From IMG/VR virus record IMGVR_UViG_3300048508_000206, positions 1 through 25,186 of that record: DNA of 25,186 bases; one strand, written 5' to 3'. The translations under genes were made by a program, and so were the position numbers. This stretch comes from a virus. This document shows, one piece after another, positions 5,762 to 20,447 of this stretch (position 1 is the first letter of the stretch; each line of letters begins with the position of its first letter). Under the pieces are notes generated by a model that was not told where the DNA came from, ran no database searches, and was given only the letters and a program-made list of their open reading frames with translations.

Positions 5762-5964
5762 TGTTATTCAATAAACGACCAGATTATATAACCAAAGAAC
5801 AAGCACAGGAGATGATTGACGATGCAATACGAAAGCATAATCGTAACGCTTCAATTATCTCTATGTGTGTTGGTTGGGTTGTTCTCGCACTTTTTGCTGA
5901 GGGTTTACTTCGACTCATTGGAGTAATACCACCACTGTTACCTTGGCTTAAAATTTCATTGTAA
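5761..5964 (+). CDS. Small single-span membrane protein
   Basis: 67 residues: a hydrophilic N-terminal helix (PDYITKEQAQEMIDDAIRK), then a hydrophobic region at about residues 32-60 (one or two spans). Its ATG shares an A with the stop codon of the preceding gene. Not recognised. Confidence 0.65.
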   Translation: MLFNKRPDYITKEQAQEMIDDAIRKHNRNASIISMCVGWVVLALFAEGLLRLIGVIPPLLPWLKISL

Positions 5965-5974
5965 TAGATGGCAC

Positions 5975-5981
5975 CTAAATA
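5975..5981 (+). promoter_or_regulatory. Late promoter-like motif CTAAATA
   Basis: CTAAATA in the 40-nt gap 24 nt before the next start codon at 6005. Confidence 0.5.
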
Positions 5982-6004
5982 AATTTGAAAATTTTTTAAT
6001 ATCT

Positions 6005-6604
6005 ATGTTTGTTGATGACAAAATTAGTCTAATTGATCCAAAAATTTTTACCGACAATTATGGAAAGATTAGAGAGGATTACATAAAGAATCGTAATTAT
6101 GATTTTTTTATTGATTATTCTCACACCTATGATATGACTGCAAATCCTGATGATGATTTTTTAGGATTTGATCTAACATTGACTGAAGAAAGTCCTTGGA
6201 AGATTTCCCCCCTCGTTTTTAATCGCAAGATTATTGGACGAACTCCCAAACAATGTAGGGAGTGCTTTACTACAAATCTTCTTCTCAGTCAACCAGTTCT
6301 CCCTGTCTTAGCAGTGTTCTCTATATTGGAACCTGGTGTAGAGTTAGAACCTCATAGTGATGGTGATCAAAGGATTGATGAGAACTATAAAGATTCTAGT
6401 GTAATTAAATATCATTTTAGTATTGATATACCATCAGATGGTGAGTGTGGGTTAGTGGTTAATAATGAAAAAAGAATTCTAAATAACGCTGATCTTAATA
6501 TGTTTGATGAGAAGTTATCTGAACATTATGCTTACAACAAATCTGATAATCGTAGAGGAGTATTGATCGTATCTTATATTAGAGATGAAGTATTGACCTA
6601 TTGA
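6005..6604 (+). CDS. 2OG/Fe(II) oxygenase, aspartyl/asparaginyl hydroxylase type
   Basis: 199 residues. EPGVELEPHSDGD supplies the HxD ligands (H117, D119), EHYAYNKSDNRRG the distal histidine (H164) and the 2OG-binding arginine (R173 or R174). The intervening YHFSIDIPSDGECGL strands fit the Asp/Asn beta-hydroxylase fold (Pfam Asp_Arg_Hydrox). Close in layout to the enzyme at 2824 but only distantly similar in sequence by eye. Its last codons contain the -35 box of the tRNA-Pro promoter. Substrate unknown. Confidence 0.8.
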   Translation: MFVDDKISLIDPKIFTDNYGKIREDYIKNRNYDFFIDYSHTYDMTANPDDDFLGFDLTLTEESPWKISPLVFNRKIIGRTPKQCRECFTTNLLLSQPVLPVLAVFSILEPGVELEPHSDGDQRIDENYKDSSVIKYHFSIDIPSDGECGLVVNNEKRILNNADLNMFDEKLSEHYAYNKSDNRRGVLIVSYIRDEVLTY

Positions 6605-6621
6605 TAAATTTTTGATATAAT
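6593..6621 (+). promoter_or_regulatory. Sigma70-type promoter before tRNA-Pro
   Basis: TTGACC (6593-6598), 17-nt spacer, TATAAT (6616-6621), 12 nt before tRNA-Pro. The -35 box is inside the last codons of the oxygenase gene. Confidence 0.65.
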
Positions 6622-6633
6622 ATAATTGATCTG

Positions 6634-6707
6634 CGGGGTGTAGCTCAGCTTGGTAGAGCACGCGCTTTGGGAGCGTGAGGCCGCAGGTTCAAATCCTGTC
6701 ACCCCGA
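6634..6707 (+). tRNA. tRNA-Pro (UGG)
   Basis: Acceptor CGGGGTG/CACCCCG, D stem GCTC/GAGC, anticodon stem CGCGC/GCGTG with loop TTTGGGA (TGG at 6668-6670), T stem GCAGG/CCTGT, loop TTCAAAT. Discriminator A. Confidence 0.95.
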
Positions 6708-6722
6708 TTTTGCTAAGTAAAA

Positions 6723-7346
6723 ATGTACGTATCTGCATATACTCCTCCCGAACCAATTGATCAAGAATCACATAGAGTTGCTGACTCACCAGTGATGTAT
6801 TACAGGGAAATAATCCCTGCAAAGTTAGTTGACATTATGGTTGATGAACTTAAAGAAATGGAGGAATTTAGAGTTGATTTTGAGGATGCTGGTGTTGGTG
6901 GAGATAGAGATGATCGAAATGATCATGCAGTAAGAAATTCAAAAGTTCATTGGTGGCCAGAGCATCACTGGGTCTGTAGTATAATGTCGCATTATATTGG
7001 ACTTGCAAATAAACACTATTGGGAATATGACTGCAGTTTTATGGAGAGCATTCAGGTATCTGTATATGAAGCGGGTGGGCATTATGCTTGGCATAGTGAC
7101 TATGGTACATCTAGTGACACCAACTTTACTAGGAAACTTAGTGCAAGTCTTTTAGTTAGTGAACCAAGTGAATATATAGGAGGAGATTTGGAGTTTATTG
7201 ATTATCATGGTAATCTAGTTAAATCTCCTAAGGAGAAAGGATCTATTATTGTGTTTGACTCTAGAGCTCCTCATAGAGTTGCTCCTGTAACGCATGGTAG
7301 AAGAGTCTCTCTTGTTACGTGGATGTATGGACCTAAATTACGATGA
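6723..7346 (+). CDS. 2OG/Fe(II) oxygenase, PKHD/prolyl-hydroxylase type
   Basis: 207 residues. SVYEAGGHYAWHSDYG gives the HxD pair (H124, D126), YIGGDLEFID the core strand, FDSRAPHRVAPVTHGRR the distal histidine (H184) and the 2OG-binding arginine (R193/R194). This is a textbook P4H-like (PKHD) oxygenase core in a full-length soluble protein. Its stop overlaps the next start as ATGA, so it is probably translated together with the next oxygenase. Substrate unknown. Confidence 0.9.
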   Translation: MYVSAYTPPEPIDQESHRVADSPVMYYREIIPAKLVDIMVDELKEMEEFRVDFEDAGVGGDRDDRNDHAVRNSKVHWWPEHHWVCSIMSHYIGLANKHYWEYDCSFMESIQVSVYEAGGHYAWHSDYGTSSDTNFTRKLSASLLVSEPSEYIGGDLEFIDYHGNLVKSPKEKGSIIVFDSRAPHRVAPVTHGRRVSLVTWMYGPKLR

Positions 7347-7990
7347 TTAATACTCCCTGGCCAACTTTTTCTAATCCCCCATTTAAAAAAATAAAACTTG
7401 ATCCTGAGTTATTATTTGATATTCTTTTAGAATATAATAAATGTAGATTCAATGAAATTTGTGATCAATCTTACTACGAGACACAATATGATGCCTATGT
7501 TTGTGAGGGGTCTATTTCTGCATTAAACAACGATAATCCTTTTACGTTGTGTTCTTTTGTTCCTGAAGAAAAATTTGAGGAATGGAATAAGAATCTTCAA
7601 CCGATCGCTGAGGAATGGTGTGGAAAAGAACTAAGGTTCCAACAAGCTTTTGGAATTAGGTCATATCAAAAAGATTGTATGTTGTGTGTTCATAGAGATA
7701 ATATAGATACACATGTGATCAGTGCTATAGTTTTTATTGATGAGTATCCTGATTGTAAATGGCCATTAGATTTTGTAGATCACGACGGTAAACATCATCA
7801 GGTCACCTTTGAGAAGGGGGACATGTTACTATATGAAAGTTTGTGTGCTCATGCTAGGGTAACACCATTTCCAGGTGAATTTTATAGGAACATGTATTTT
7901 CATTGGAGTCCTTCTGATTGGGAGTATAGAGAATATAAAGATAATAAAGTTCGTTACAGAAGTATTCAAGAGGTTCAAGATGAGTATTGA
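7343..7990 (+). CDS. 2OG/Fe(II) oxygenase, P4H-like
   Basis: 215 residues. IRSYQKDCMLCVHRDN holds H117 and D119; FEKGDMLLYESLCAHAR the distal histidine (H170); FYRNMYFHW the 2OG arginine (R182). The order and spacing match the double-stranded beta-helix of P4H-type oxygenases, although the HxD environment is unusual (VHRDN). Starts inside the stop of the preceding oxygenase and overlaps the following Phd-like gene by 11 nt. Confidence 0.8.
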   Translation: MINTPWPTFSNPPFKKIKLDPELLFDILLEYNKCRFNEICDQSYYETQYDAYVCEGSISALNNDNPFTLCSFVPEEKFEEWNKNLQPIAEEWCGKELRFQQAFGIRSYQKDCMLCVHRDNIDTHVISAIVFIDEYPDCKWPLDFVDHDGKHHQVTFEKGDMLLYESLCAHARVTPFPGEFYRNMYFHWSPSDWEYREYKDNKVRYRSIQEVQDEY

Positions 7991-8156
7991 AGTTTACACG
8001 GTTCAAGAATTTCAAGATCGATGGGATGAGATGATTGAAAGGGTAGAGAACGGTGAGCATATTGGAATAATTAATGAAGATGGAAATGCTGCAGTGATGA
8101 TGCCAGCAAAAGATGATATAATACGGATACACACGGATCATGATGATGCATCCTGA
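7980..8156 (+). CDS. Phd/YefM-like antitoxin
   Basis: 58 residues starting MSIEVYTVQEFQDRWDE. The pattern (tV-x-E-F-x-x-R-W-x-x-x-I-x-R-V-E-N-G-E-x-I-x-I-I-N-E-D-G) fits the N-terminal domain of Phd/YefM antitoxins, which bind DNA as dimers. The inner ATG at 7980 was chosen over 7875 because the longer form adds an unrelated hydrophobic segment antiparallel in logic to the fold and overlaps the oxygenase by 116 nt. No Doc- or YoeB-like toxin gene is adjacent, so it is an orphan. tRNA-Ile begins directly after its stop. Confidence 0.65.
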   Translation: MSIEVYTVQEFQDRWDEMIERVENGEHIGIINEDGNAAVMMPAKDDIIRIHTDHDDAS

Positions 8157-8228
8157 GGGACTGTCGCCTAACGGTTAAGGCCCACTGCTTATAACGGTGT
8201 GACCTGGGTTCAACTCCCAGCAGTCCTA
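8157..8228 (+). tRNA. tRNA-Ile (UAU)
   Basis: Acceptor GGGACTG/CAGTCCT (G-T first pair), D stem GCCT/AGGC, anticodon stem CACTG/CGGTG with loop CTTATAA (TAT at 8190-8192), short variable loop, T stem CTGGG/CCCAG. It would read AUA directly without lysidine modification. Abuts the preceding stop codon. Confidence 0.88.
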
Positions 8229-8231
8229 TTT

Positions 8232-8304
8232 GCTTCCTTAGCAATCTGGTGAATGCAGCAAACTCATAATTTGCCTAAGGTGAGTTCGATCCTCACAGGA
8301 AGCA
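8232..8304 (+). tRNA. tRNA with CAU anticodon (tRNA-Met, elongator type)
   Basis: Acceptor GCTTCCT/AGGAAGC, anticodon stem GCAAA/TTTGC with loop CTCATAA (CAT at 8265-8267), T stem GTGAG/CTCAC, loop TTCGATC, discriminator A. The first acceptor pair is G-C, so it is not an initiator. With CAT it is either elongator Met or a lysidine-modified Ile tRNA; the presence of a separate Ile(UAU) next door favours Met. Confidence 0.88.
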
Positions 8305-8305
8305 C

Positions 8306-8334
8306 TTGACGAATCTTCGTCAGTCCATTAAAAT
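8306..8334 (+). promoter_or_regulatory. Sigma70-type promoter with overlapping inverted repeat
   Basis: TTGACG (8306-8311), 17-nt spacer, TAAAAT (8329-8334). A perfect 7-bp inverted repeat TGACGAA/TTCGTCA (8307-8322) covers the -35 box and could be an operator or, in RNA, the hairpin end of the tRNA transcript. It precedes the gene at 8358. Confidence 0.5.
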
Positions 8335-8357
8335 TAAATTGTCAACACTACAGACAA

Positions 8358-8573
8358 ATGACTATCACTGCAAAGTTTAAAAAGGACATCAGTATTCTTC
8401 GTGCTGCTGCCGCTGGTGAAATTTTCCTTGATGTGAAGAACCCAAAACTTTTTAAAAAAGTTCGTCGCTATTATGAGAATACTGGAATTGTATTCTCTGG
8501 AGAACCTCTTGATGATTATGATATTTTGATGGAGTCACTTTCTGTTGACCTTGAATCTGTTGAAGTTGCTTAA
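8358..8573 (+). CDS. Small hypothetical protein, 71 aa
   Basis: Starts MTITAKFKKDISILRAAAAG and ends in an acidic stretch (DILMESLSVDLESVEV). Soluble, no cysteines, no membrane segment. It has its own promoter-like sequence 24 nt upstream and is followed after 2 nt by an oxygenase gene. Looks like a conserved small phage protein but I cannot name it. Confidence 0.7.
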   Translation: MTITAKFKKDISILRAAAAGEIFLDVKNPKLFKKVRRYYENTGIVFSGEPLDDYDILMESLSVDLESVEVA

Positions 8574-8575
8574 CA

Positions 8576-9190
8576 ATGTCGAATAATCAAAATTTAGAAG
8601 ATATTGCGTCAAAAGAATATCTGCATCAAGACTTTATTATGGTCTGGGATGATATTATACCGAGTGATTTTTGTGATTGGTTGGTAACTTATTTAAACAA
8701 TAGTAATTATCTTCATCCTCGTAGTAATAATTATCTGTCTGATAAACAAGTTGAGATGCATAACTTTTCTCCTGGAGAAGCAGATTACTTGCAGATGTTG
8801 GTAAATGGATGTGCCTTAGAGTATGTTAACAAATATCCATATCTTAAAGCATTCCCTTACACCAGTAGTTGTGTTTTGCTTCAGCAAACTAATCCTAAAG
8901 AGGGGTATCATGCATTTCATGCAGAAGATTCTACCTGGAACAATCAGTTGAGAACTCTTGCATGGATGGTTTATCTTAATGATGTTGATGATGGAGGAGA
9001 AACTGAATATCTATATCAACAACTTAAAATTAAACCTAAGCAGGGGCGAGTGGTTATTTGGCCAGGATCATTTACTCATATTCATAGGGGTAATCCACCG
9101 ATGAGTGAGAAGTTTATTGCTACTGGTTGGTATGCTGGATGTACAGGTCATGAACAAAGACTCTTCTCCCCTCTCGATTCCTCATCTTGA
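8576..9190 (+). CDS. 2OG/Fe(II) oxygenase, P4H-like with HxE variant
   Basis: 204 residues. GYHAFHAEDST provides the iron site with H115 and E117 (HxE in place of HxD), DDGGETEYLY the core turn, and WPGSFTHIHRGNPP the distal histidine (H168 or H170). The residue expected to bind 2-oxoglutarate appears to be K179 (SEKFIATGWY) rather than Arg. These substitutions keep the fold but may alter activity. Overlaps the downstream radical SAM gene by 41 nt, so the two are probably coupled. Confidence 0.8.
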   Translation: MSNNQNLEDIASKEYLHQDFIMVWDDIIPSDFCDWLVTYLNNSNYLHPRSNNYLSDKQVEMHNFSPGEADYLQMLVNGCALEYVNKYPYLKAFPYTSSCVLLQQTNPKEGYHAFHAEDSTWNNQLRTLAWMVYLNDVDDGGETEYLYQQLKIKPKQGRVVIWPGSFTHIHRGNPPMSEKFIATGWYAGCTGHEQRLFSPLDSSS

Positions 9191-10001
9191 GTGGCATGTA
9201 ACACATTCTTGTAATTTCACATGTCAAGGTTGTGGGCATTACACTAATGATGGGTATAGAGAAAATATTACATTACAAACTCTCAGGGAATGGTATCTCT
9301 TATGGAATAAGAGAATTAGACCTCGGGAGTTATCTATGTTAGGTGGAGAACCATTCTTGAATAAAGAGATCGTTGATATAATCTATATGACAAAAGAAGT
9401 TTGGGATGTTGGAGAAGATCAAGAACTTGAATTGGTATCTAACGGACTTCTTTTTGATAAAGTATCTGGAATTGATAAGGCGTTAATAGAAACTAATTGT
9501 ATTCTTACAATTACAAAACACTCTCTTGATCAAGATTACATTAAATTATTTGATAATGCAATACATAGAATAAAAAAATCTGGTGTAAATTATAGAATAC
9601 ATGATGCAACCGATTATTGGTTGAGGTCCTATAATGGATACGGGTCTTCAATGGAACCAATAACTAGTAACGACTATAGAGAGTCTTGGGATAATTGTCC
9701 TGTAGGGCAAGAGAATTTTATTTTACAAGACTCTAAAATATATAAGTGTGCTCCTTTGGCATATTTACCCCTACAGAAAAAAAAGTATGGTAATATTTTA
9801 TCTTCAAAGTGGGATCCATATTTAAAGTATGTTCCATTAGATTCTTCTTCATCTGACTTAGAAGTCTTTGAGTTTTTTATTAGGACTGCAGAATCTGTAT
9901 GCTCTATGTGTCCTTCTTCAAAACATTTATTTAAGAAAGAAACACCATTACATTCTCCTAACTATGTCAAAAAATTGTACGAAAAAAACTTTAAGAGTTG
10001 A
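9150..10001 (+). CDS. Radical SAM enzyme
   Basis: 283 residues starting MNKDSSPLSIPHLEWHV. CNFTCQGC at 21-28 is the CxxxCxxC motif that binds the 4Fe-4S cluster and SAM, and LGGEPFL at 64-70 is the GGE motif. Further cysteines (C183, C200, C241, C244) in the C-terminal part suggest an auxiliary cluster as in SPASM/Twitch enzymes. The internal ATG at 9150 was chosen because the earlier one (9105) adds an out-of-place hydrophobic stretch. It overlaps genes on both sides (41 and 38 nt). The substrate is unknown; position between oxygenases suggests a shared modification pathway. Confidence 0.85.
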   Translation: MNKDSSPLSIPHLEWHVTHSCNFTCQGCGHYTNDGYRENITLQTLREWYLLWNKRIRPRELSMLGGEPFLNKEIVDIIYMTKEVWDVGEDQELELVSNGLLFDKVSGIDKALIETNCILTITKHSLDQDYIKLFDNAIHRIKKSGVNYRIHDATDYWLRSYNGYGSSMEPITSNDYRESWDNCPVGQENFILQDSKIYKCAPLAYLPLQKKKYGNILSSKWDPYLKYVPLDSSSSDLEVFEFFIRTAESVCSMCPSSKHLFKKETPLHSPNYVKKLYEKNFKS

Positions 10002-10683
10002 TACTTTTGATGACTTCTTAGATGAAGATCTTAGAGAGTCTTTACATGCGAGTTCTTTAAAGCATTACGAACATAATCTTTATACTACGGACTGTATAGA
10101 TATAACCAAATCTATAATTGATTGTCATGGGTTAGCACTTTCGACTACAGCATACTTTCCGTATGATGATAATTGTTGGAATATCTTTTGTCTTTCTATA
10201 AAGGAGAAAGTTCAAACTTATGTTTTAGAGGAGTTTGGATATAGTTCTGATTATATTATTCCATTTTCTTGCTGGGGAGAGAGAGTTGATAGTCCCCAAT
10301 CTTATATAAAAAATGATGATATTAGAAATGGGATAATTGAAGACAGTATTAAAGAACATGTCATCTTAACGGCAGGGGATACTCCAGCAAAAGCGATTGA
10401 TTATTATCAAAATAAACATATTATTCGTTGTGTGTATAATATAATATCACCAGAGAATGATAATTTATATGCACTTAAAATTCTATACTCTAACGGTAAA
10501 TCTGCCCCATCAATTATCAAGGTCTTATCCAAACCAAATAGGTTGACAATTTTTGATGGACATTCTTTTGATCATCAATTGTGCTATCCAATAAAAGAAC
10601 TGCATAAAATTCCTAAGTATAATATAATTTTTGATTGGTATATCAATGATCCGTTTGATGTTCCTGATTGGATTCTTCCGTAA
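9964..10683 (+). CDS. Uncharacterised protein, possibly a degenerate 2OG oxygenase
   Basis: 239 residues from the ATG at 9964 (MSKNCTKKTLRVD); earlier in-frame starts would run deep into the radical SAM gene. The end (RLTIFDGHSFDHQLCYPIK, then a strand IIFDWY) has the shape of the distal-histidine strand of 2OG oxygenases. No convincing HxD pair is seen upstream and the usual Arg seems to be Lys. It overlaps the radical SAM gene by 38 nt and the convergent minus-strand oxygenase by 41 nt. Oxygenase ancestry is only a suggestion. Confidence 0.6.
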   Translation: MSKNCTKKTLRVDTFDDFLDEDLRESLHASSLKHYEHNLYTTDCIDITKSIIDCHGLALSTTAYFPYDDNCWNIFCLSIKEKVQTYVLEEFGYSSDYIIPFSCWGERVDSPQSYIKNDDIRNGIIEDSIKEHVILTAGDTPAKAIDYYQNKHIIRCVYNIISPENDNLYALKILYSNGKSAPSIIKVLSKPNRLTIFDGHSFDHQLCYPIKELHKIPKYNIIFDWYINDPFDVPDWILP

Positions 10684-11365
10684 AGCTACAGTCCATAACA
10701 ATTGATATTCTTGGACTTAATGCCAAATCTTCAAACTTTGGATAAACTGCTGTATGATATAGTCGGGGATTGAATATGAGTAAACTATTTTCTTCCCCAT
10801 CATTTTTGAACATTTTGGTATCGCTTAGTTTTACTATTGTTCCATATTTTGGATCTGGATTTTTTGCATAATATATTAATCCAATATCATTTGTTTCGTG
10901 AGAGTGCATGTTTCCAAATGTATTGTTCTGTGACAATCTTCTTTTTATTTCTTCTCGCGTATGTTTGTCATAGACTTCTTTTTTTAAGTGTTCTGTCCAT
11001 TCTGAAGATTTAGTTTGTACTGATGTGTAACCTGGAGTTTGTATTGAATTGTCTGCAACTCTAGTCATCCATGATTGGTCTACCTTTAATTTAGATATGT
11101 CCTTTTTTGTGACACTACAATATTTTAAAATATGTTTTTTTAATTCGGTATAGAATGATGTCCAAAAGGGATGGTCCTCTAATAGTTTGTAGCATTCTAT
11201 TGATGCTTCTGGTGGATATGTCTCTTCGTTGAATGGTTTCCTATTATTGTCTATCCAGTTACAGGACTCTTTTACTATATCATCTAGAAGATGTTCTGGA
11301 AAAACATTTGATGCTTTATAAAAATAGTTATCACCATGTCTTTTCACACTAATTGTTTTTGACAT
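10643..11365 (-). CDS. 2OG/Fe(II) oxygenase-like protein (minus strand)
   Basis: 240 residues. GNMHSHETNDIGLIYYAKNP (H154, H156) followed by LLIFNPRLYHTAVYP (H204) and LSPRISIVMD (R219) follows the pattern of the putative 2OG-Fe(II) oxygenase family with an HxH start (Pfam 2OG-FeII_Oxy_5). The N-terminal 120 residues are helical and not recognised. It converges with the preceding + strand gene and its 3' end overlaps it by 41 nt. A T4-late-like AAATAAATA on the minus strand lies upstream of its start, near 11395-11387. Confidence 0.7.
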   Translation of the reverse strand: MSKTISVKRHGDNYFYKASNVFPEHLLDDIVKESCNWIDNNRKPFNEETYPPEASIECYKLLEDHPFWTSFYTELKKHILKYCSVTKKDISKLKVDQSWMTRVADNSIQTPGYTSVQTKSSEWTEHLKKEVYDKHTREEIKRRLSQNNTFGNMHSHETNDIGLIYYAKNPDPKYGTIVKLSDTKMFKNDGEENSLLIFNPRLYHTAVYPKFEDLALSPRISIVMDCSFTEESNQEHQTDH

Positions 11366-11405
11366 AACATAGAATCAATCGTATAGTATTTATTTGGATT
11401 TGTGG

Positions 11406-11411
11406 TATAAT
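11406..11411 (+). promoter_or_regulatory. Consensus -10 box upstream of the glycan operon
   Basis: TATAAT lies 21 nt before the gmd start codon in the divergent gap 11366-11432. No good -35 hexamer is found at 16-18 nt upstream, so activation by a phage or host factor is possible. Confidence 0.4.
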
Positions 11412-11432
11412 CTAATTATAGGTATCTAAATT

Positions 11433-12440
11433 ATGAAGACAGCACTTATTACTGGCATTACTGGGCAGGATGGTTCCTATCTTGCAGAGTTGCTTATCGA
11501 GAAGGGATATATGGTTCATGGGATTGTTCGACGAGCATCCCTTATTAATACCCATCGCATTGATCACATTTTTGATCACCCTCAGATGAAACTTCACTAT
11601 GGTGATCTTACTGATGCTGGTAATTTGATTCATGTAATTCAGAAGTCTCAACCAGATGAGATTTATAATTTGGGTGCTCAGAGTCATGTTAAAGTATCTT
11701 TTGAGATGCCTGAGTATACTGGTAATGTTGATGGACTAGGAACTCTGCGTATTCTTGAGGCAGTTCGTATTCTGGGGATGGAAGATAAAGTTCGTATCTA
11801 TCAGGCGTCTACAAGTGAATTGTATGGTGAGGTTCAGGAGGTTCCTCAAACGGAAACTACACCATTTTATCCAAGATCTCCTTATGGAGTAGCAAAGTTG
11901 TATGGATATTGGATTATTAAAAACTATCGTGAATCATATGGAATGTATGCATGTAGTGGTATCCTATTCAATCATGAATCTCCTCGTAGAGGAGAGACCT
12001 TTGTGACTAGGAAGATTACTATGGGATTATCTAAGATTAGTTGTGGACTTCAGGATGTTCTTCTTCTTGGAAATTTAAATGCAAAACGTGATTGGGGTCA
12101 TGCAAAAGATTATGTTGAAGCAATGTGGTTGATGCTTCAACAGGATTCGCCAGAAGATTATGTTATTGCAACGGGCAATCAATACTCTGTTCGAGAGTTT
12201 GTTGAAAAGTCTGCTAATTATTTTGGTATGAATATTGTATGGCAAGGTGAGGGTCAAGATGAAGTTGGGATTGATAAAAATACTGGAAGAGAGGTTATTA
12301 AAGTTGACCATAAATACTTTCGCCCAGCAGAAGTTGAGTCTCTTTTAGGGGATGCAACAAAAGCAAAAGAGCAACTTGGTTGGGAACCAAAAATTTCGTT
12401 TGATGAGTTAGTTGAGGACATGTGTATCTATGGACAGTGA
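11433..12440 (+). CDS. gmd: GDP-mannose 4,6-dehydratase
   Basis: 335 residues, near the usual family length. The N-terminus shows the Rossmann motif [14 protein letters not shown], then RRAS (nucleotide site), STSELYGE with the catalytic Ser/Thr-Glu, and YGVAK, the Tyr-x-x-x-Lys pair of short-chain dehydrogenases. It converts GDP-D-mannose to GDP-4-keto-6-deoxy-mannose in the cytoplasm. First gene of the glycan operon; the next gene, which takes its product, overlaps it by 11 nt. Confidence 0.97.
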
Positions 12441-13365
12441 TTCTAGAATTTTGGTTGCTGGTGCCAACGGTTTAGTTGGATCAGCAATAGTGAGGTGTCT
12501 GAAGGATAAAGGGCACTCATTTGTTATTGAAGCAACTCGTAGACAAGTTGATTTTACAGATCAAGTTCAAACTGAATCGTATTTTGGTTCTGTAAGACCT
12601 GAATATGTTTTTGTTGCAGCTGCCAAAGTTGGTGGCATTATGGCAAACAAAACATTACCAGCAGATTTTATTTACAAGAACTTGATGATTCAAACCAACA
12701 TCATCAATTGTGCTCATGGATATGGAACTAAAAAATTAGTATTCCTTGGGTCTTCTTGCATTTATCCAAAGCACGCTAACATTCCTATTACGGAAGATCA
12801 GTTGATGACTGGTCCATTAGAACCCACTAATGATGCGTATGCCGTTGCAAAGATTGCTGGCATCAAGATGTGTCAAGCATATCGTCATCAACATGGGTTT
12901 GATGCTATCTCTCTTCAACCAACTAATCTGTATGGTGTTGGAGATAACTTTGATCCTCTGTCGAGTCATGTTATTCCTGGAATTATGCGTAGGATGCATG
13001 AAGCAAAACTAAATGGTGATGAACAGTTCTGGTGTTGGGGTGATGGATCTCCTTTGAGAGAGTTCCTTTACATTGATGATATGGCAGAAGCGTGCTATGC
13101 TTGTATGCAGAATTATAGTGATTCTGAAATCATTAACATTGGCACTGGATATGACATCTCAATTAAAGAGTTGACACAAGTTATTGCTGAGGTTATTGGA
13201 TATAGTGGTGAAATTTATTGGGATACTTCCAAACCAAATGGAACCCCTAGGAAGGTTATGAATGTAGATAAACTACTTGATCTTGGGTGGAAACCTAAAG
13301 TTGATATTGTAGAGGGATTGACTAAAACTTACGAATGGTTTAAAGAGAATTATGATCGGATTTAA
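12430..13365 (+). CDS. fcl: GDP-L-fucose synthase
   Basis: 311 residues. [10 protein letters not shown] at 11-20 is the NADP-binding loop, AAAKVGGI and SSCIYP (108-113) are typical of WcaG/Fcl, and YAVAK (137-141) contains the catalytic Tyr and Lys. It epimerises and reduces the Gmd product to GDP-L-fucose. The ATG at 12430 was taken because the family starts just before the Rossmann strand. Overlaps gmd by 11 nt and the fucosyltransferase by 14 nt. Confidence 0.96.
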
Positions 13366-14155
13366 TGCGTTAGGGCAACTAGGTAGACTTGGCAATCAAA
13401 TGTTTCAGTATGCATCTCTTCGTGGGATTGCTGCTAAAAATGGACATGTTTGGATGATGCCTCCTCCAGCAGAATCTTACGACAAACTGGATGAATGGAA
13501 AGATCACCAACTCTTCTATCCTTTTAATATGAGCACAGTTCAAAATTTAAATGTTCAATATACTGATGGTGAAAGACCAGTTGTAAATGAAAAGACTTTT
13601 GGATTTGATGATGATCTCTATAACAACTGCCCCAAGTGGGTAGACGTTAGGGGGTACTTGCAATCTGAAAAGTACTTTAAAGATATTGAAGATACTATTC
13701 GTGAAGATTTTACCTTCAAACCTCAGTTCCTTAGACCTAGTAGGTCTATGATCAATTCCTTTGAGAATCCAGTTTCTTTACACATTAGAAGAACAGATTA
13801 TTTAACATTGTCACACAATCATAATAATCTTGGTCTTGATTATTATGAGGAAGCATTGACTCATTTTGATGGGGATAGAAATGTTGTTGTCTTTAGTGAT
13901 GATCCAGACTGGTGTAAAGAGCAGAGTCTGTTTGACGACGATCGATTCTTAGTTGCTGAAGGTAATATAAATTATGTTGATATGTGTTTAATGAGTCTTT
14001 GTAACGCACATATTATTGCAAACTCATCATTCTCTTGGTGGGGTGCATGGTTAGCGAAGAGCGAAAAGGTTATCGCTCCTAGCAAATGGTTTGGTCCAGA
14101 TAATAAGCATCTGGATACAACTGATCTTTATTGTGAAGGATGGATTATTATCTGA
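13352..14155 (+). CDS. GT11 alpha-1,2-fucosyltransferase
   Basis: 267 residues with the three hallmark GT11 blocks: GRLGNQMFQYA at 11-21, HIRRTDY at 144-150 (the HxRRxD donor-binding motif) and NSSFSWWGAWL at about 224-234. The enzyme transfers L-fucose from GDP-fucose, made by the two preceding genes, to a galactose-like acceptor. No signal peptide or membrane span, so cytoplasmic. Overlaps fcl by 14 nt and shares one base with the GT6 gene. Confidence 0.93.
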   Translation: MIGFNALGQLGRLGNQMFQYASLRGIAAKNGHVWMMPPPAESYDKLDEWKDHQLFYPFNMSTVQNLNVQYTDGERPVVNEKTFGFDDDLYNNCPKWVDVRGYLQSEKYFKDIEDTIREDFTFKPQFLRPSRSMINSFENPVSLHIRRTDYLTLSHNHNNLGLDYYEEALTHFDGDRNVVVFSDDPDWCKEQSLFDDDRFLVAEGNINYVDMCLMSLCNAHIIANSSFSWWGAWLAKSEKVIAPSKWFGPDNKHLDTTDLYCEGWIII

Positions 14156-14874
14156 TGAAAGTTGCTGTAATTTTTATTGGCACCGAGAAGTATCTAAACT
14201 TCCTGCCAACTTGGTATGAGAGTTGTGAAAAGTTTCTTCTTCCTGGAGTTGAGAAGAAGTATGCCATCTTTACTGATGGTGAAATTCCTGAAGCACCTGA
14301 TAACGCTGTCGTCTATAAGCAAGAGCATCTGGAATGGCCATACATTACTTTGTATCGCTTCAAGATGATTCGTAGATGCTTTGAAGATATTAAGGATTGT
14401 GATTGGTTACTCTTCCTTGACGCTGATATGCGTGTGGTTGATACCGTAAATCCAGAAGATCTGTTTGATGATACTAAGAAGTACATTGGTGTTCATCATC
14501 CATGTGATTACTTAAACTTCCCTCCACACGATAATATTCCTGGAGCATTTGATGTTACTCCTCTCTCCAGGGCATGTGTAGCAGAAGATGATGATCTGTC
14601 TATTTACGTGCAGGGTTGTCTGTGGGGTGGTAAAATGCCATATGTCATGGAGATGATTGAAGAACTTGATAGTAGAACTGATGAAGATGAGTCAAACAAC
14701 ATCATTGCAACCTGGCATGATGAGAGTCATTTGAATAAGTTTTATGTTGAACATCGAGATGAAGTATTTGTTGCTTCTCCCTCTCTTGCCTTCCCAGAAT
14801 TATTTGAGCAGGCATGTACATTCGATGCAAAAATTGTCCATCTAGCAAAAGATAATAGTAAGTATCATGTCTAA
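14155..14874 (+). CDS. GT6 (ABO-type) glycosyltransferase
   Basis: 239 residues from the ATG at 14155. LLFLDADMRV contains a DxD metal site (D89-A-D91), YVQGCLWGG (151-159) corresponds to the family's acceptor-side loop, and WHDESHLNK (187-195) is the signature of GT6 enzymes such as the human ABO transferases. The family adds Gal or GalNAc in alpha-1,3 linkage. Many bacterial members have NxN in place of DxD, so retention of DxD is notable; as I recall, a DxD-type GT6 has been described in a Prochlorococcus phage. No membrane anchor, unlike the vertebrate enzymes. Starts in the stop of the fucosyltransferase gene (ATGA-type overlap). Confidence 0.9.
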   Translation: MKVAVIFIGTEKYLNFLPTWYESCEKFLLPGVEKKYAIFTDGEIPEAPDNAVVYKQEHLEWPYITLYRFKMIRRCFEDIKDCDWLLFLDADMRVVDTVNPEDLFDDTKKYIGVHHPCDYLNFPPHDNIPGAFDVTPLSRACVAEDDDLSIYVQGCLWGGKMPYVMEMIEELDSRTDEDESNNIIATWHDESHLNKFYVEHRDEVFVASPSLAFPELFEQACTFDAKIVHLAKDNSKYHV

Positions 14875-15571
14875 GGTAGCTTTGATCTATTCAGGTCAAC
14901 CAAGACACCTGAAAGAATGTTTTGAGAATCATCAGTCTATGATTTGGGATGCAAATCCTGACGCAGAGATCGATGTATTTGCACATATATGGTATGATGA
15001 AGAATGGGTAGGATCATACTTTTGGGATCAATATAAAGATCGTGGACGTTGGGAAGCAGATCTTAAAGACTTTATGGTCGATAAGTGGCAACCTAAGGGT
15101 CTGGTCTTTGAAGAACCCAAACAGTTTGATGCTGAAGATATTCATCCTGATCCTAGATTCCCTCATCCTGTGAATAACATTATTTCTATGTTTTACAGTT
15201 TGAGTGAAGCAAATAACCTCAAGAAAAAATACGAGGAAGAAAATGGTTTTAAGTATGATTGCGTTGTTCGATTACGAACTGATGAATACTTTAATACACC
15301 AATTGGGTCACTTGACAATTACGATTTAAATACCGTAAATGTCCTTAATGAATGGGCGCATGTAGATCATGGTATTAATGACCACTTTGCATTTGGGTCC
15401 TCTGAACTAATGGATAAATATCTCGACGTATTTGAAAACTTCGTTGAAATTTGTGAGATGGGTGCAGAGATTAACCCTGAGTGTCTTATTGGATTCAATG
15501 CTCAAAAGAGACACAAACTTCCCATCACTAAAAATCCCTGGCACTATGTTCTTTGGAGAGACAAAAAATAA
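14867..15571 (+). CDS. SGQPR-motif protein, glycosyltransferase-like
   Basis: 234 residues starting MSKVALIYSGQPRHLKEC. The first strand plus SGQPR loop, VFAHIWYDEEW, NNIISMFYSLSEAN and YDCVVRLRTDEYF (an RxD-type acidic site) form an alpha/beta pattern seen also in the protein at 16947, so the two are paralogues. The architecture resembles a GT-A-like transferase, but no activity is established. Overlaps the GT6 gene by 8 nt and shares one base with the next gene. Confidence 0.7.
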   Translation: MSKVALIYSGQPRHLKECFENHQSMIWDANPDAEIDVFAHIWYDEEWVGSYFWDQYKDRGRWEADLKDFMVDKWQPKGLVFEEPKQFDAEDIHPDPRFPHPVNNIISMFYSLSEANNLKKKYEEENGFKYDCVVRLRTDEYFNTPIGSLDNYDLNTVNVLNEWAHVDHGINDHFAFGSSELMDKYLDVFENFVEICEMGAEINPECLIGFNAQKRHKLPITKNPWHYVLWRDKK

Positions 15572-16947
15572 TGACAACTAAACTTGTTATATTTGATTTG
15601 GATGGAGTCCTTATCGACAGTAAGGATTATCATTACGATGCTCTGAATCAAGCACTTGGTTCAGAATATGCAATCAGTAGGGGAGATCATGTCAGTATCT
15701 ACGATGGTCTTCCTACTAAAGCAAAACTGGAACTTCTTACGAAGAATAAAGGTCTTCCTGTAGATCAATATGATACTATCTGGAAAGACAAGCAGGAAGC
15801 AACTCTTAAGATCTTTAATGAGTGTGTTGCTAAAGACTATGAATTGATGGGTTACTTCCAACAGTTGGTAGATTCTGGTTATAAGATTGCAGTTGCCTCT
15901 AATAGCATTCGCAATACTGTGAAGATTATTCTCTTGCGTTTGGGATTGCTTGAGTTTGTAGATATGTACGTGTCTAATGAAGACGTTGTACGCAATAAAC
16001 CATTTCCAGCAATGTATTGGAAGTGCATGACCGCACTTGGTGCTATTCCAAACAATACTGTTATTATTGAGGATAGTCATATTGGTCGTCAAGGTGCATT
16101 AGATAGTAAGTGTCACCTTGTTCCCGTAGAAGATCGCAAAGATCTCAATCAAAGTAAGATTGACCGAATTAAAAAGATTTTAAATGGCACTAAGAAAAAA
16201 GTTGCATGGGAGAGTAAGACGATGAATGTATTAATTCCTATGGCAGGTGCTGGTAGTAGATTTGCTAGTCAAGGATACACCTTCCCTAAACCTCTTATTG
16301 AAGTTAAAGGAAAACCAATGATCCAAGTGGTCACTGAGAATCTCAATATTAAAGCAAACTATACATTCATTGTACAAAAGGAACACTATGATAAGTATAA
16401 TCTCAATTACCTGCTTCCTCTTATTGCTCCTGGGTGCAATATTGTACAGGTCGAAGGCATCACAGAAGGTGCAGCTTGTACCACTTTACTTGCGAAACAA
16501 TTCATCGACAACGACGAACCGTTAGTAATGGCAAACTCTGACCAGTTTGTTGAGTGGGATTCTAATGAGACTCTTTATGCCTTCCAGAATGGTGAGGTAG
16601 ATGGTGGTATTGTTACCTTCCCAGCAACTCATCCTAAGTGGTCTTATGCCAAGTTGGGAGATGATGGATACGTTGCTGAAGTTGCCGAGAAGAAACCAAT
16701 CTCAGAACATGCCACTGTTGGTATCTACTACTGGAAGAGAGGATCTGATTATGTTAAGTATGCTGAGCAGATGATCGAGAAAGATGTTCGGGTCAATAAT
16801 GAATATTATGTTTGTCCAGTCTTTAACGAAGCAATTGGTGATGGCAAAAAAATTCGCATCAAAGAGATCGATAAGTCTGGTATGTGGGGTATTGGAACTC
16901 CCGAAGATCTGAATTATTTCTTGGAGCATTACGAGGGTGAAGTTTGA
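15571..16947 (+). CDS. HAD phosphatase / sugar nucleotidyltransferase fusion
   Basis: 458 residues with two domains. Residues about 1-205 are a HAD hydrolase of the beta-phosphoglucomutase/phosphatase type: DLDGVLIDS (D9, D11), ASNS (S110), K143 in RNKPFP, and EDSHIGRQGA (E167, D168). Residues about 218-458 are a nucleotidyltransferase: PMAGAGSRF (223-231), FPKPLIEVKGKPM, NSDQFVEW as metal-binding acid, and GTPEDLNYF at the end. The two could prepare and activate a sugar or other phosphate for the operon's transferases. An internal ATG at M218 would yield the second domain alone. Confidence 0.88.
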   Translation: MTTKLVIFDLDGVLIDSKDYHYDALNQALGSEYAISRGDHVSIYDGLPTKAKLELLTKNKGLPVDQYDTIWKDKQEATLKIFNECVAKDYELMGYFQQLVDSGYKIAVASNSIRNTVKIILLRLGLLEFVDMYVSNEDVVRNKPFPAMYWKCMTALGAIPNNTVIIEDSHIGRQGALDSKCHLVPVEDRKDLNQSKIDRIKKILNGTKKKVAWESKTMNVLIPMAGAGSRFASQGYTFPKPLIEVKGKPMIQVVTENLNIKANYTFIVQKEHYDKYNLNYLLPLIAPGCNIVQVEGITEGAACTTLLAKQFIDNDEPLVMANSDQFVEWDSNETLYAFQNGEVDGGIVTFPATHPKWSYAKLGDDGYVAEVAEKKPISEHATVGIYYWKRGSDYVKYAEQMIEKDVRVNNEYYVCPVFNEAIGDGKKIRIKEIDKSGMWGIGTPEDLNYFLEHYEGEV

Positions 16948-17675
16948 TGAAAGTAGCACTAGCGTTTTTTGGTCAACCTAGATTTGTTGATAATCAGCAA
17001 ATTATTGATACCTACAAACAAGTAATTCTTGATAGGTATGACACCGATGTCTTTGGGCATATGTGGTGGAAAGAAGAGACAGAAGGAGAGTATGAGTACT
17101 CTTCTTGGTCAAAGATTGCAAAGTGTCCTATTTCAAAGGATGCTCCTAAAATTATTGCTGATAACTATGCCCCAATCATTATGGGTATAGAAGATCCAAG
17201 AACTTTTGAATTGCCTCCTAACGCACTTAAGTACGTTGATGAGAGATTCACTGGTAAGCATCCTGATGGTCCACACTGGAATCACAAGAACTATAGTAAT
17301 GTGATGTCCCAGTTGTTTTCTATTAAGTCAGTTGCTAATATTGTAAAGTCTTACGCGGAAGAGACTAATACCAGTTACGACTTTATTGTCCTTGCTAGGT
17401 ATGATACTGTCCTGATGAGGTTTCCTGATCTCAATACTTGTGACAAGTATAAGTTCTATCTTCCTGGACATCACCCCAGATTCCCTGATACTATTCAGTT
17501 CTTTGGTCCAAAGTATCTCACATGGGCACTAAATGCCTTTGATGATATTGATGATGTCTGTGAGGGAATTTGGGAACCTTCTCCAGAAGCATTTAAAATG
17601 GGTGCGTTTTTGCGTAGGTTTAGTCAGTCGGATCTTGCTCCTTGTCCTATGGATGCTGCTTGTATTAGAGGTTAA
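16947..17675 (+). CDS. FGQPR-motif protein, glycosyltransferase-like
   Basis: 242 residues starting MKVALAFFGQPRFVD, a paralogue of the protein at 14867: same first strand plus GQPR loop, VFGHMWWKEE matching VFAHIWYDEE, NVMSQLFSIKSV matching NIISMFYSLSEA, and DFIVLARYDTVLMRF matching DCVVRLRTDEYF. The ATG overlaps the stop of the fusion gene (ATGA). Function presumably similar to its paralogue; activity unknown. Confidence 0.7.
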   Translation: MKVALAFFGQPRFVDNQQIIDTYKQVILDRYDTDVFGHMWWKEETEGEYEYSSWSKIAKCPISKDAPKIIADNYAPIIMGIEDPRTFELPPNALKYVDERFTGKHPDGPHWNHKNYSNVMSQLFSIKSVANIVKSYAEETNTSYDFIVLARYDTVLMRFPDLNTCDKYKFYLPGHHPRFPDTIQFFGPKYLTWALNAFDDIDDVCEGIWEPSPEAFKMGAFLRRFSQSDLAPCPMDAACIRG

Positions 17676-17676
17676 A

Positions 17677-18135
17677 ATGAAATTAATTGCACATCGTGCC
17701 AATATCAATGGTCCAGATTCTTCTACTGAGAATAGTCCAGATCAAATTGACAAATGTATCGAACAGGGATATGATGTTGAAGTTGATATTAGATATGATC
17801 CCAAAACAGAACGTCTGTGGTTGGGACATGATGAGCCTCAACATGCGGTAACTTGGTGGTGGTTAGCGGCAAGAGCACAACATCTTTGGATTCATTGTAA
17901 AGATATTACTACTATGTTTGCTTTTTCTGATGGCACTAGTGGATATAATTACTTCTGGCATCAGGAAGATGACTTTACCCTAACCAGTAAACAATTTATC
18001 TGGAGTTATCCAGGTAAACCATATACAAGTAGAAGTATTGTTGTAATGCCAGAGTGGAATAATCCCAAATGGGATTCTCTGAAGGTTACTAACTGTTATG
18101 GTGTTTGTACAGATTATCCAGAAAAGTTAAAATGA
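17677..18135 (+). CDS. Short GDPD-like phosphodiesterase family protein
   Basis: 152 residues from the ATG at 17677. MKLIAHRANINGP (H6, R7), TENSPDQI (E18, N19), YDVEVDIRYD (E35, D37) and LGHDEPQ (H51, D52) reproduce the catalytic order of glycerophosphodiester phosphodiesterases. The barrel is far shorter than the usual 240 or more residues, with WIHCKD, NYFWHQEDDF and a CTDYP end, a layout suggesting a compact viral-type subfamily rather than a truncation. It may act on a phosphodiester-linked glycan. ATGA-type overlap with the next gene. Confidence 0.75.
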   Translation: MKLIAHRANINGPDSSTENSPDQIDKCIEQGYDVEVDIRYDPKTERLWLGHDEPQHAVTWWWLAARAQHLWIHCKDITTMFAFSDGTSGYNYFWHQEDDFTLTSKQFIWSYPGKPYTSRSIVVMPEWNNPKWDSLKVTNCYGVCTDYPEKLK

Positions 18136-19082
18136 AAATTGTATTAGTTGGTCCTGGTATTATGCCTATTCCCCCAACAGGTTGGGGTGCAGTAGAGATT
18201 CTTGTTTGGGACACAAAGAATGCCCTTGAGGAACTTGGGCATGAAGTTTACATCATCAATACCAAAGACTCTAGGCAGATTATTAATGGTATTAATGCCT
18301 TTGTCCCTGATTTTGTACATGTGCATTATGACGAGTTTATTCCGATAATGCCTTATATTCAGTATCCTAGTGCTATCACAAGTCACTTTGGATACCTAGA
18401 GCGTAAGGAAATGTTTGGTGGATATGCCAGTGTTTCTGCAGAATTTCAAAAGATTAAACCTAACGTCTTCTGTTTGTCTGAAGGAATTCAAAAGGTTTAT
18501 AATATCATGTTTGATATTCCTAAAGAAAATACTTTTGTAACACCTAATGGTGTAAACATTGATCGATTCAGAGTTTCAAAAGATCCTCTACATTCGGATC
18601 GTAGTATCTACCTTGCAAAAATTGACTATCGTAAACGTCAACATCTATTCCAAGGAATTGATAGTCTTTGGTTTGCTGGTAATCTTGCAGACAATAGGTT
18701 TGATACTAATAAAAATTATCTCGGGGAGTGGGATAAGGAGACTTTATATAACGAGTTAACTGACTACGGCAATCTTGTTCTTCTATCTGATGGTGAAGCA
18801 CATCCACTTGTTTGTATGGAAGCACTTGCTGCTGGATTGGGTGTTGTTGTATGTGAATGGGGCAAAGCAAATTTGGATCTTGATAGGGAATTTATTACAG
18901 TAATACCTGAAAATAAAATCAACGATCTTGAATTTGTTGAAGATGCAATAATTAAGAATCGAGAATATTCTATTAATAATAGAGATGAAATTATTGAATA
19001 CGCTAAGAAGTTTGAGTGGAAAGAAGTTTTACGTAATAACTATATCCCTAGTGTAGAGAAGGTAATTGAACGTCATGGATAG
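18132..19082 (+). CDS. GT4-type glycosyltransferase
   Basis: 316 residues from the ATG at 18132. The N-terminal Rossmann half begins MKIVLVGPGIMPIPPTGWGAVE, the typical acceptor-side loop of GT-B enzymes. TPNGVNIDRF (137-146) is the linker signature, and DGEAHPLVCMEALAAG (220-235) contains the E-x7-E motif (E222, E230) that binds the nucleotide-sugar donor. A cytoplasmic retaining transferase; donor and acceptor unknown. Confidence 0.92.
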   Translation: MKIVLVGPGIMPIPPTGWGAVEILVWDTKNALEELGHEVYIINTKDSRQIINGINAFVPDFVHVHYDEFIPIMPYIQYPSAITSHFGYLERKEMFGGYASVSAEFQKIKPNVFCLSEGIQKVYNIMFDIPKENTFVTPNGVNIDRFRVSKDPLHSDRSIYLAKIDYRKRQHLFQGIDSLWFAGNLADNRFDTNKNYLGEWDKETLYNELTDYGNLVLLSDGEAHPLVCMEALAAGLGVVVCEWGKANLDLDREFITVIPENKINDLEFVEDAIIKNREYSINNRDEIIEYAKKFEWKEVLRNNYIPSVEKVIERHG

Positions 19083-19881
19083 TGCTGTTGTAGATAAAAA
19101 CAAGTCCGCATATAAACTGAAAAACTTTGGTCCAGTTTATTATTTGAATATGGATGCCGATGAAAATCGTAAAGGTTATATGGAAGAGCAGTTTGCTCAT
19201 TGGAATGTAACTGACTATCATCGTATTTCTGCATATGATGGACGTGAAGATGATTTGAGTGGCATTCTTAAAGGTCGCTATCCTGATATGATGTCTTCTG
19301 GGGAAGTTGGTTGTATCACTTCACACTTGAAGGCGATTAAACATTGGTATGACACTTCCGATAGTCCTTATGCTATAATTATGGAAGATGATTGTAACTT
19401 AGATACTGTTCATTTTTGGAACTTCTCTTGGAGTGATTTTGTCGCAAACCTCCCATATGATTGGGATGTTGTACAAGTTGCAATTATTCAAACAGGTGAT
19501 GTGCATATTAAATTGCATCGCAGGTTTGTAAATGACTTCTCTACTGCTTGTTATATGATTACCAGGCATCATGCTGAGAAGTTAATTAAGCATCATGTCA
19601 AAGGTCCAGATAAGTATCGTTTAGATAATGGTGTCAAACCCCGTCCAGTTGCAGATGATCTCATTTACAATTCGGGGAATACTTATTCCATCCCATTACT
19701 GCTGTATAGACTTCAGTTGGGATCATCCATTCATCCAGAACATGTCGATGTCTTCCATAAACAGAACTTTGATGGTATAATGAATTGGTGGACACAGATG
19801 GGGGCAACAATGGAAGTTAAGACTATTACTGACTTCGATCCTTATCTGGGTAAAGTAAGTGATCCTTCTCAACATCGGTAG
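19075..19881 (+). CDS. GT25-family glycosyltransferase (LPS type)
   Basis: 268 residues from the ATG at 19075 (a TTG at 19066 is also in frame). VYYLNMDADENRKGYM at 21-36 matches the family's first strand with donor-binding Asn/Arg, GEVGCITSHLKAIKHW at 76-91 is the GCxxSH block, and IIMEDDCNLD at 101-110 the EDD metal site. Family members add galactose or similar to lipo-oligosaccharide cores. Last gene of the operon; overlaps the GT4 gene by 8 nt. Confidence 0.88.
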   Translation: MDSAVVDKNKSAYKLKNFGPVYYLNMDADENRKGYMEEQFAHWNVTDYHRISAYDGREDDLSGILKGRYPDMMSSGEVGCITSHLKAIKHWYDTSDSPYAIIMEDDCNLDTVHFWNFSWSDFVANLPYDWDVVQVAIIQTGDVHIKLHRRFVNDFSTACYMITRHHAEKLIKHHVKGPDKYRLDNGVKPRPVADDLIYNSGNTYSIPLLLYRLQLGSSIHPEHVDVFHKQNFDGIMNWWTQMGATMEVKTITDFDPYLGKVSDPSQHR

Positions 19882-19883
19882 GG

Positions 19884-19892
19884 TTATCCACA
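19884..19892 (+). other. DnaA-box-like nonamer
   Basis: TTATCCACA, an exact match to the bacterial DnaA-box consensus, lies 2 nt after the operon's last stop codon. A single box may be chance. Confidence 0.3.
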
Positions 19893-19896
19893 CTAC

Positions 19897-19930
19897 TTGA
19901 CAAACATTTAAAGTTCAGGTAGTATAAATA
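19897..19930 (+). promoter_or_regulatory. Overlapping sigma70-type and T4-late-type promoters
   Basis: TTGACA (19897-19902), 17-nt spacer, TAGTAT (19920-19925). Overlapping its -10, TATAAATA at 19923-19930 is an exact match to the T4 late promoter consensus. The gene at 20038 could thus be expressed early and late. Confidence 0.65.
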
Positions 19931-19932
19931 CT

Positions 19933-20037
19933 TAACCTTTTGTCATAATATAACAAAGGGTATACTTAATAACGGGGCACGTCGAGTCCCTATTCATCTG
20001 CGGGTATTCATTCCGCAAGTAACTAAAGGTAATTCAA
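19933..20037 (+). other. Structured 5' leader of the outer-membrane protein gene
   Basis: About 105 nt of untranslated leader. It holds two inverted repeats: CCTTTTGT with ACAAAGGG around an AT-rich loop near 19937-19961, and TGCGG/CCGCA around GTATTCATT near 19999-20017. AAAGG lies 8 nt before the start codon. No gene is present. Confidence 0.45.
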
Positions 20038-20409
20038 ATGATTAAATCTGTATTCGCAGCAACTGCTGCTCTGTTCGCATCCGCTGGCGCTGCCCTTGCA
20101 GGTCCCTACGTCAACGTAGAAACCAATGCTGGTTGGACTGGATCGGAGTACAATGGCGCTGGAACAGACGTTCACGTAGGCTACGAAGGTGCTCTTGGCG
20201 AAGCTGGTTCTTACTACGTTCAGGGTGGCGCTACCGTGCTGACTCCTGATGGTGGTGATAGCGACACCGTTCCTTCTGGTAAGGCAGGTCTGGGTCTTGG
20301 TTTGACCGACAACCTCGGTGCATATGGTGAAGTTTCCTTCGTAGGTTCAGGCGACGAAGATCTTGACCGTGGATACGGAGCTAAGTTGGGCGTTAAGTAC
20401 AACTTCTGA
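20038..20409 (+). CDS. Secreted small beta-barrel outer-membrane-like protein
   Basis: 123 residues. A classical signal peptide (MIKSVFAATAALFASAGAALA, cleavage before GPY) is followed by a Gly-rich series of alternating strands (YVNVETNAGWTGSEY, HVGYEGAL, YYVQGGATV, AGLGLGLT, AYGEVSFVG) and the C-terminal YNF typical of proteins inserted by BamA. Eight-strand or shorter barrels of the OmpA/porin-like type look like this. The gene is visibly richer in G+C and better in codon choice than its neighbours, suggesting high expression or recent origin in a host. It has its own promoters and a strong terminator, so it is a single-gene unit. Confidence 0.7.
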   Translation: MIKSVFAATAALFASAGAALAGPYVNVETNAGWTGSEYNGAGTDVHVGYEGALGEAGSYYVQGGATVLTPDGGDSDTVPSGKAGLGLGLTDNLGAYGEVSFVGSGDEDLDRGYGAKLGVKYNF

Positions 20410-20428
20410 TCTTTTAGTCAGACACGTA

Positions 20429-20442
20429 AACATCTAGATGTT
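20429..20442. other. Perfect 14-bp palindrome
   Basis: AACATCTAGATGTT is its own reverse complement. It lies between the stop codon at 20409 and the terminator stem; a protein-binding site or a minor hairpin is possible. Confidence 0.5.
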
Positions 20443-20447
20443 ATACT

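Follow-up and report, generated by a model that had tools for sequence, protein, structure and literature searches.

A putative glycan-modification operon of a cyanomyovirus pairs a GT11-family fucosyltransferase with an ABO-family GT6 glycosyltransferase

A 25,186-base virus record, the whole of which was analysed here (hereafter “the window”), carries four genes at positions 11433–14874: gmd, fcl, GT11, and GT6. They overlap head to tail on the plus strand, and their family matches are far above chance. We moderately favor the interpretation that these genes belong to a cyanomyovirus glycan-modification operon, in which GDP-L-fucose would be synthesized, transferred by the GT11 enzyme, and the fucosylated product extended by the GT6 enzyme on the host surface, with exclusion of other phages as the benefit. 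The comparison of viral gene neighborhoods supports the GT11–GT6 pair as the fixed and functionally coupled core of the operon. The closest relatives of the window are T4-like phages of Synechococcus and Prochlorococcus, and the window shows synteny with Kyanoviridae genomes; we regard it as a cyanomyovirus that infects photosynthetic bacteria of the ocean or of lakes.

The four genes open a longer same-strand glycan operon that extends to approximately position 19881. The gene gmd (GDP-mannose 4,6-dehydratase, 11433–12440) is preceded by a 67-nt gap containing a promoter-like site on the plus strand (TTGACA-17-TATAGT, 11359–11387) with 11 of 12 consensus matches. This site is among the best two of the 53 found in the region 8000–20500, where the total is not above that of shuffled sequences (53 vs. 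46.9). The gene fcl (GDP-L-fucose synthase) overlaps gmd and spans 12430–13365 from an ATG, with the open reading frame listed from a TTG at 12412. It is followed by GT11 (13352–14155) and GT6 (14155–14874 from the ATG at 14155, although the open reading frame may start at 14140), and the GT11 stop and GT6 start codons overlap as TGATG. Downstream of GT6, also on the plus strand, are a phrog_13607 protein that may be a glycosyltransferase (14867–15571; phrog_13607, 148 bits; weak DUF7796 match), overlapping GT6 by 8 nt; a fusion of a HAD phosphatase and a sugar-1-phosphate nucleotidyltransferase (15571–16947; PF13419, 83 bits; PF00483, 40 bits; phrog_8468 and phrog_3980); a second phrog_13607 protein (16947–17675; 165 bits); a gene of unknown function (phrog_34507, 17533–18135; 105 bits); a GT4-like glycosyltransferase (18105–19082; phrog_33732, 598 bits; weak PF13439/PF00534 matches); and, as the final gene, an LPS-type GT25 glycosyltransferase (19066–19881; PF01755, 44 bits; phrog_2835, 393 bits). 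As in cyanophage LPS islands, nucleotide-sugar and glycosyltransferase genes, including GT25, are thus clustered in synteny with T4-like cyanophages.

The identification of gmd and fcl as GDP-L-fucose genes, proposed in the preliminary description of the sequence, agrees with the profile matches. Gmd scored 568.7 bits against the equivalog profile TIGR01472, above the cut-off of 415 bits, and 520.7 bits against PF16363, while Fcl matched the GDP-L-fucose synthase profile NF047922 over its full length with 455.6 bits (equivalog cut-off 500; next-best family 86). The GT11 protein matched PF01531 with 98.6 bits (gathering score 23.9) as well as phrog_2644, and contains the motifs HIRRTDY and NSSFSWWG (H-x-R-R-x-D type), whose core residues are invariant across 21–26 relatives. 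A sequence search of solved structures with GT11 returned no related entry, and a fold comparison was used in its place: the 50 PDB matches listed for the AF2 model are all fucosyltransferases (including FUT8, POFUT1, NodZ, and plant FUT1), with modest TM-scores of approximately 0.5. The family and hallmark motifs proposed for this enzyme stand, whereas its description as an alpha-1,2-fucosyltransferase goes further than family membership allows, because GT11 also holds the alpha-1,3-fucosyltransferase HhFT2 (PMC4202792).

The GT6 protein, assigned to a family of retaining glycosyltransferases, matched PF03414 with 75.5 bits (gathering score 25) and phrog_3317, and its best solved relative by sequence is BoGT6a of Bacteroides ovatus (E-value 9e-20), followed by the human ABO transferases (E-value approximately 2e-16). 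The AF2 model has a GT-A fold, and the best structural matches listed all belong to GT6, with TM-scores of 0.84–0.86 to BoGT6a and 0.77–0.84 to human GTA/GTB. Profile searches and structure prediction, which had been suggested as checks on both transferases, agree with each other and with the motifs, with models of high pLDDT (92.7 for GT11 and 93.9 for GT6). The DxD and WHDESHLNK motifs previously described for the ABO-family enzyme are likewise present, as DAD at residues 94–96 and as WHDESHLNK with the catalytic Glu (E195) in WHDES. The DAD motif occurs in 115 of the 117 viral sequences of the window type, while 56 of the 75 bacterial GT6 sequences retrieved have NAN in its place. Bacterial GT6 enzymes are known for an NXN motif and metal independence (PMC3961637), and the window GT6, judging from its DAD motif, is probably of the metal-dependent type. 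The enzyme also keeps the His at human H233, a Glu at human D326, and the C-terminal Lys.

The donor site is less conventional. Human positions 266 and 268 separate the A from the B enzymes (PMC4202792), and prediction of the donor from these positions was abandoned, as the window GT6 has Q158 and C160 there, which fit neither GTA (L266, G268) nor GTB (M266, A268). We know of no characterized counterpart with Gln and Cys at these positions. The residue at human T245 is A137, and relatives mostly have Ala or Ser. The Q-G-C donor site is invariant in eight phage GT6 sequences and occurs throughout a large viral GT6 group, although that group was itself defined by Q-G-C. Because of the Gln/Cys pair and the Ala at human T245, the donor sugar of GT6 cannot be read off from its residues.

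Two characterized systems are instructive in this respect. In the O-antigen pathway of Escherichia coli O86, which makes blood group B, a GT11 alpha-1,2-fucosyltransferase (WbwK/WbnK) acts first and the GT6 enzyme WbnI then acts on the fucosylated galactose, so that GDP-L-fucose, GT11, and GT6 follow each other as in the window (PMC4202792). Unlike the O86 system, the window system is phage-borne and known from genes, and its GT6 has DAD instead of the NxN typical of bacterial members; moreover, the O-unit polymerase and flippase of O86 have no recognized equivalent in the window, in which no flippase, polymerase, or ligase was recognized. BoGT6a, which like WbnI has Fuc-alpha-1,2-Gal as its acceptor (PMC3961637; PMC4202792), is the top match to the window GT6 both in fold and among PDB sequences. 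Both are compact single-domain proteins of approximately 245 amino acids and share WHDES and the Glu at human 326. However, they are only 26–28% identical in the fold alignment, and BoGT6a has the metal-independent NAN motif and an A-G-G donor site, in contrast to DAD and Q-G-C in the window GT6. The resemblance to ABO blood-group synthesis that had been suggested for the cassette thus holds for the enzyme families, the gene order, and the GT11–GT6 coupling, but not literally for the A/B donor residues. A literal ABO reading is also weakened by the GDP-mannose-3,5-epimerase (GDP-L-galactose) that stands in place of gmd and fcl in a similar number of relatives (see below).

A rather unlikely alternative is that the product is a fucosylated branch of another kind than H/A/B, with GT11 forming a different linkage or fucosylating a different sugar and GT6 adding a different sugar at a different site. 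Such a product would be consistent with the donor-site residues, with the GDP-L-galactose donor module of related phages (see below), and with the breadth of both families, as GT11 includes an alpha-1,3-fucosyltransferase and GT6 includes fucose-independent linear alpha-1,3-galactosyltransferases (PMC4202792). On the other hand, the enzyme retains the catalytic His, WHDES, the conserved Lys, and a Glu at human D326, and BoGT6a, which has the same Glu, uses fucosyl-lactose. Coupling of GT11 and GT6 also fits the known O86 pathway, and an H-to-A/B type of logic remains the preferred reading.

The coupling was examined in 196 viral GT6 genes, which formed 87 clusters at 90% identity; 37 clusters that were at least 49% identical to the window GT6 were regarded as window-type. 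GT11 is located upstream on the same strand in all 37 of these clusters, and no more than 60 nt away in 33. The pair is kept while the gene on the 5′ side of GT11 varies (fcl, GDP-mannose-3,5-epimerase, a GT4 gene, and others), as does the gene on the 3′ side of GT6 (phrog_13607, GT25, and others). GT6 is missing from 43 of 76 GT11-anchored loci, whereas none of the 37 window-type GT6 clusters lacks GT11, as would be expected if GT6 needs the product of GT11. In the P-SSM2 type of GT6, GT11 is often several kb distant and sometimes was not seen. The phage GT6 clusters share descent. As a control, cyanophage islands were drawn by their GT25 gene regardless of GT6 or GT11, with contig ends adding noise, and these showed no association in the presence of the two genes (both in 31, GT6 only in 10, GT11 only in 12, and neither in 5; p = 0.75). 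Plain co-occurrence in cyanophage islands was accordingly dropped as evidence of coupling, and the evidence for linkage in phages rests on adjacency and on the persistence of the pair when its flanks differ. The suggested order of donor synthesis, fucosylation, and extension agrees with the gene order and with the position of GT11 upstream of GT6, but the gene-order argument is weak by itself because GT11 and GT6 co-occur across islands no more than expected.

Outside phages, the 80 best bacterial loci of GT6 include 53 with GT11 nearby, 25 of them within 150 nt. A single GT11 gene is present in 11 of 12 bacterial genomes checked; since 11 of the 12 had been chosen for a nearby GT11, the information in this check lies in the copy number alone. 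Among 386 Cyanobacteriota genomes sampled without selection, 11 had GT6, 64 had GT11, and 8 had both. GT11 is therefore present in 8 of 11 genomes with GT6 compared to 56 of 375 without (Fisher p = 4e-5, uncorrected for kinship among genomes), and among the psbA-negative genomes in 8 of 10 with GT6 compared to 17 of 194 without (p = 6e-7, likewise uncorrected). The two genes directly adjoin in two genomes (G037 and G281).

These data bear on a further alternative, slightly less probable than the previous one, in which GT11 and GT6 are neighbors of a modular LPS island through block inheritance only and act on different acceptors or at different positions of the glycan. Cyanophage islands are rich in glycosyltransferases, the high frequency of both GT11 and GT6 in them makes joint presence non-significant, the phage clusters have a common ancestry, and the two genes are apart in ACG-2014f and P-SSM2, all of which are consistent with inheritance as a block. 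However, the pair outlasts the exchange of both of its flanks, and GT6 and GT11 co-occur and abut in unrelated bacteria in which GT11 is often a single-copy gene, which argues for functional coupling.

The same pair is associated with different donor modules. Among the 37 window-type loci, 13 have gmd and fcl, 15 have an epimerase, 2 have gmd and an epimerase, and no donor module was seen in 7. An example of a gmd/fcl-type phage is DSL-LC03. In the Synechococcus phage S-CAM9, GT11 is preceded by a single SDR gene, which matches plant GDP-mannose-3,5-epimerase with 275 bits (next family 85), and the motifs SSACIYP, YGxEK, and GGxEKAP align with their Cys, Tyr-Lys, and Lys residues. GDP-mannose-3,5-epimerase is described as yielding GDP-L-galactose or GDP-L-gulose (PMC9602691). 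On these bit scores and aligned residues, we rejected the view that the S-CAM9-type gene is another fcl. The same type of epimerase gene was detected by tblastn in Bellamy, S-PRM1, S-8S55, and SynMITS9220M01. L-galactose is L-fucose with an additional 6-hydroxyl group, and from this likeness GT11 could plausibly take either sugar. On the GT11 tree, loci with the same donor label group together, and a minimum of four switches is required. We tentatively suggest an exchangeable supply of L-sugars, in which one glycosyltransferase pair would be served by either GDP-L-fucose or GDP-L-galactose and would form blood-group-like branches with L-fucose or L-galactose on the host surface, as a form of antigenic variation against rival phages.

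Comparison with individual phages shows the same modularity. In the Synechococcus phages S-CAM9, S-PRM1, Bellamy, S-8S55, and SynMITS9220M01, GT11 and GT6 adjoin in the order of the window, with the single epimerase in place of gmd and fcl, and in S-CAM9, S-PRM1, and S-8S55 the pair is followed by the same train of phrog_13607, HAD-nucleotidyltransferase, GT4, and GT25 genes. P-SSM2 resembles the window in that a single island contains gmd and fcl along with GT11, GT6, and a GT25-like gene, and a role in LPS has been suggested for its gene clusters (PMC2984593); in contrast, its GT6 is 34% identical and of another clade (AGG donor site), and its GT11 and GT6 are non-adjacent. The Synechococcus phage S-SCSM1 has a gmd 82% identical to that of the window, and one of its GT11 neighbors is annotated as a DNA beta-glucosyltransferase. 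The gmd, fcl, GDP-mannose-3,5-epimerase, and GT11 genes of S-SCSM1 were described as cell-wall genes in 2022, and GT6, unlike in the window, is not named in the available portion of that description (PMC9602691).

The following account of the window operon is inferred as regards the sequence of steps, the linkages, the acceptor, and the site and purpose of the glycan. Gmd and Fcl would convert GDP-mannose of the host to GDP-L-fucose, which is established chemistry for these families. The GT11 enzyme would then transfer L-fucose onto a glycan of the surface, with a terminal galactose as the probable acceptor residue, and the metal-dependent GT6 enzyme may add a hexose (Gal, GalNAc, or similar) beside the fucose, giving a branched trisaccharide by the logic that leads from H to A/B. 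The likeliest target is the lipopolysaccharide, or another surface polysaccharide, of the infected host, because an LPS-type GT25 gene closes the operon, which belongs to a type of island for which a host-surface role has been proposed. Two reports suggest that cyanophage LPS genes modify the host surface as a defense against other phages (PMC2984593; PMC9602691), and the likeliest benefit here would similarly be the blocking of later phages or an altered recognition of the infected cell. The preliminary description had also considered the virion as the site of the glycan. Glycosylation of the phage’s own virion proteins or DNA, to which the annotation in S-SCSM1 could point, is very unlikely given the terminal LPS-type GT25 enzyme, the make-up shared with known cyanophage LPS islands, and the fact that no structural gene was recognized in the glycan operon.

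If the host-surface pathway is correct, infected cells would bear a sugar foreign to the normal repertoire of the host, so that they may be stained with lectins and infection may be tracked, and it would offer a handle on the old conjecture that cyanophage LPS genes exclude competing phages. The GT6 step is nearly missing from photosynthetic cyanobacteria: among 182 psbA-positive genomes, a GT11 match was found in 39 and GT6 in one. This sole photosynthetic GT6 (genome G269, locus L437) is a distant member located directly after a SecA-like open reading frame, with no GT11 found in the surrounding 20 kb. A host origin of the window GT6 was considered and rejected, as the best cellular match found is just 39% identical. 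Cyanophage GT6, gmd, fcl, and GT11 have each already been reported singly, and GT6 had been noted in two cyanophages by 2014 (PMC3961637). Our literature search, for which most subscription papers were beyond reach, found no paper joining the four genes into one pathway. With the present analysis, anonymous “glycosyltransferase” genes in viruses that are widespread in the sea and in lakes would become a defined two-step branch pathway with enzymes inherited as a pair. Several phages in GenBank carry the GT11–GT6 pair, but their annotations go no further than glycosyltransferase, GT6, GT11, or hypothetical protein.

A GDP-mannose-3,5-epimerase gene stands in place of gmd/fcl before the fucosyltransferase-family and ABO-family gene pair (GT11-GT6) in Synechococcus phage S-CAM9 (L002:8074-9192) and at loci L003, L004, L007, and L008, and many IMG/VR loci are arranged likewise. 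This replacement points to GDP-L-galactose as the probable donor in the epimerase-carrying phages.

Some cyanophage islands (L310, L318, L370, and L429) have two or three copies of GT11 without GT6. Among the 182 psbA-positive cyanobacterial genomes, the sole DAD-type GT6 was found in genome G269 (L437:9242-9997), where it is immediately preceded by a SecA-like ORF, and GT11 was absent from the surrounding 20 kb.

Within the glycan operon, an HAD phosphatase-nucleotidyltransferase fusion (15571-16947, plus strand) has a phrog_13607 paralogue on either side, and may belong to a pathway for an activated sugar.

Upstream of the operon, seven tRNA genes (Arg, Asn, Tyr, Val, Pro, Ile, and Met) are dispersed over 2735-8305. 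A small ORF (7875-8156) is directly followed by tRNA-Ile. At a comparable position, between tRNAs, phage Bellamy has a short ORF whose annotation reads Phd-like antitoxin; a toxin partner was not seen. The gene for a radical SAM protein (9105-10001) is overlapped by the next ORF (9868-10683), which has no assigned function. Adjoining the operon is also a series of genes encoding small proteins, either 2OG-Fe(II) oxygenases or similar to aspartyl hydroxylases (2824-3522, 6005-6604, 6723-7346, and 8576-9190), with perhaps one more on the minus strand (10643-11365).
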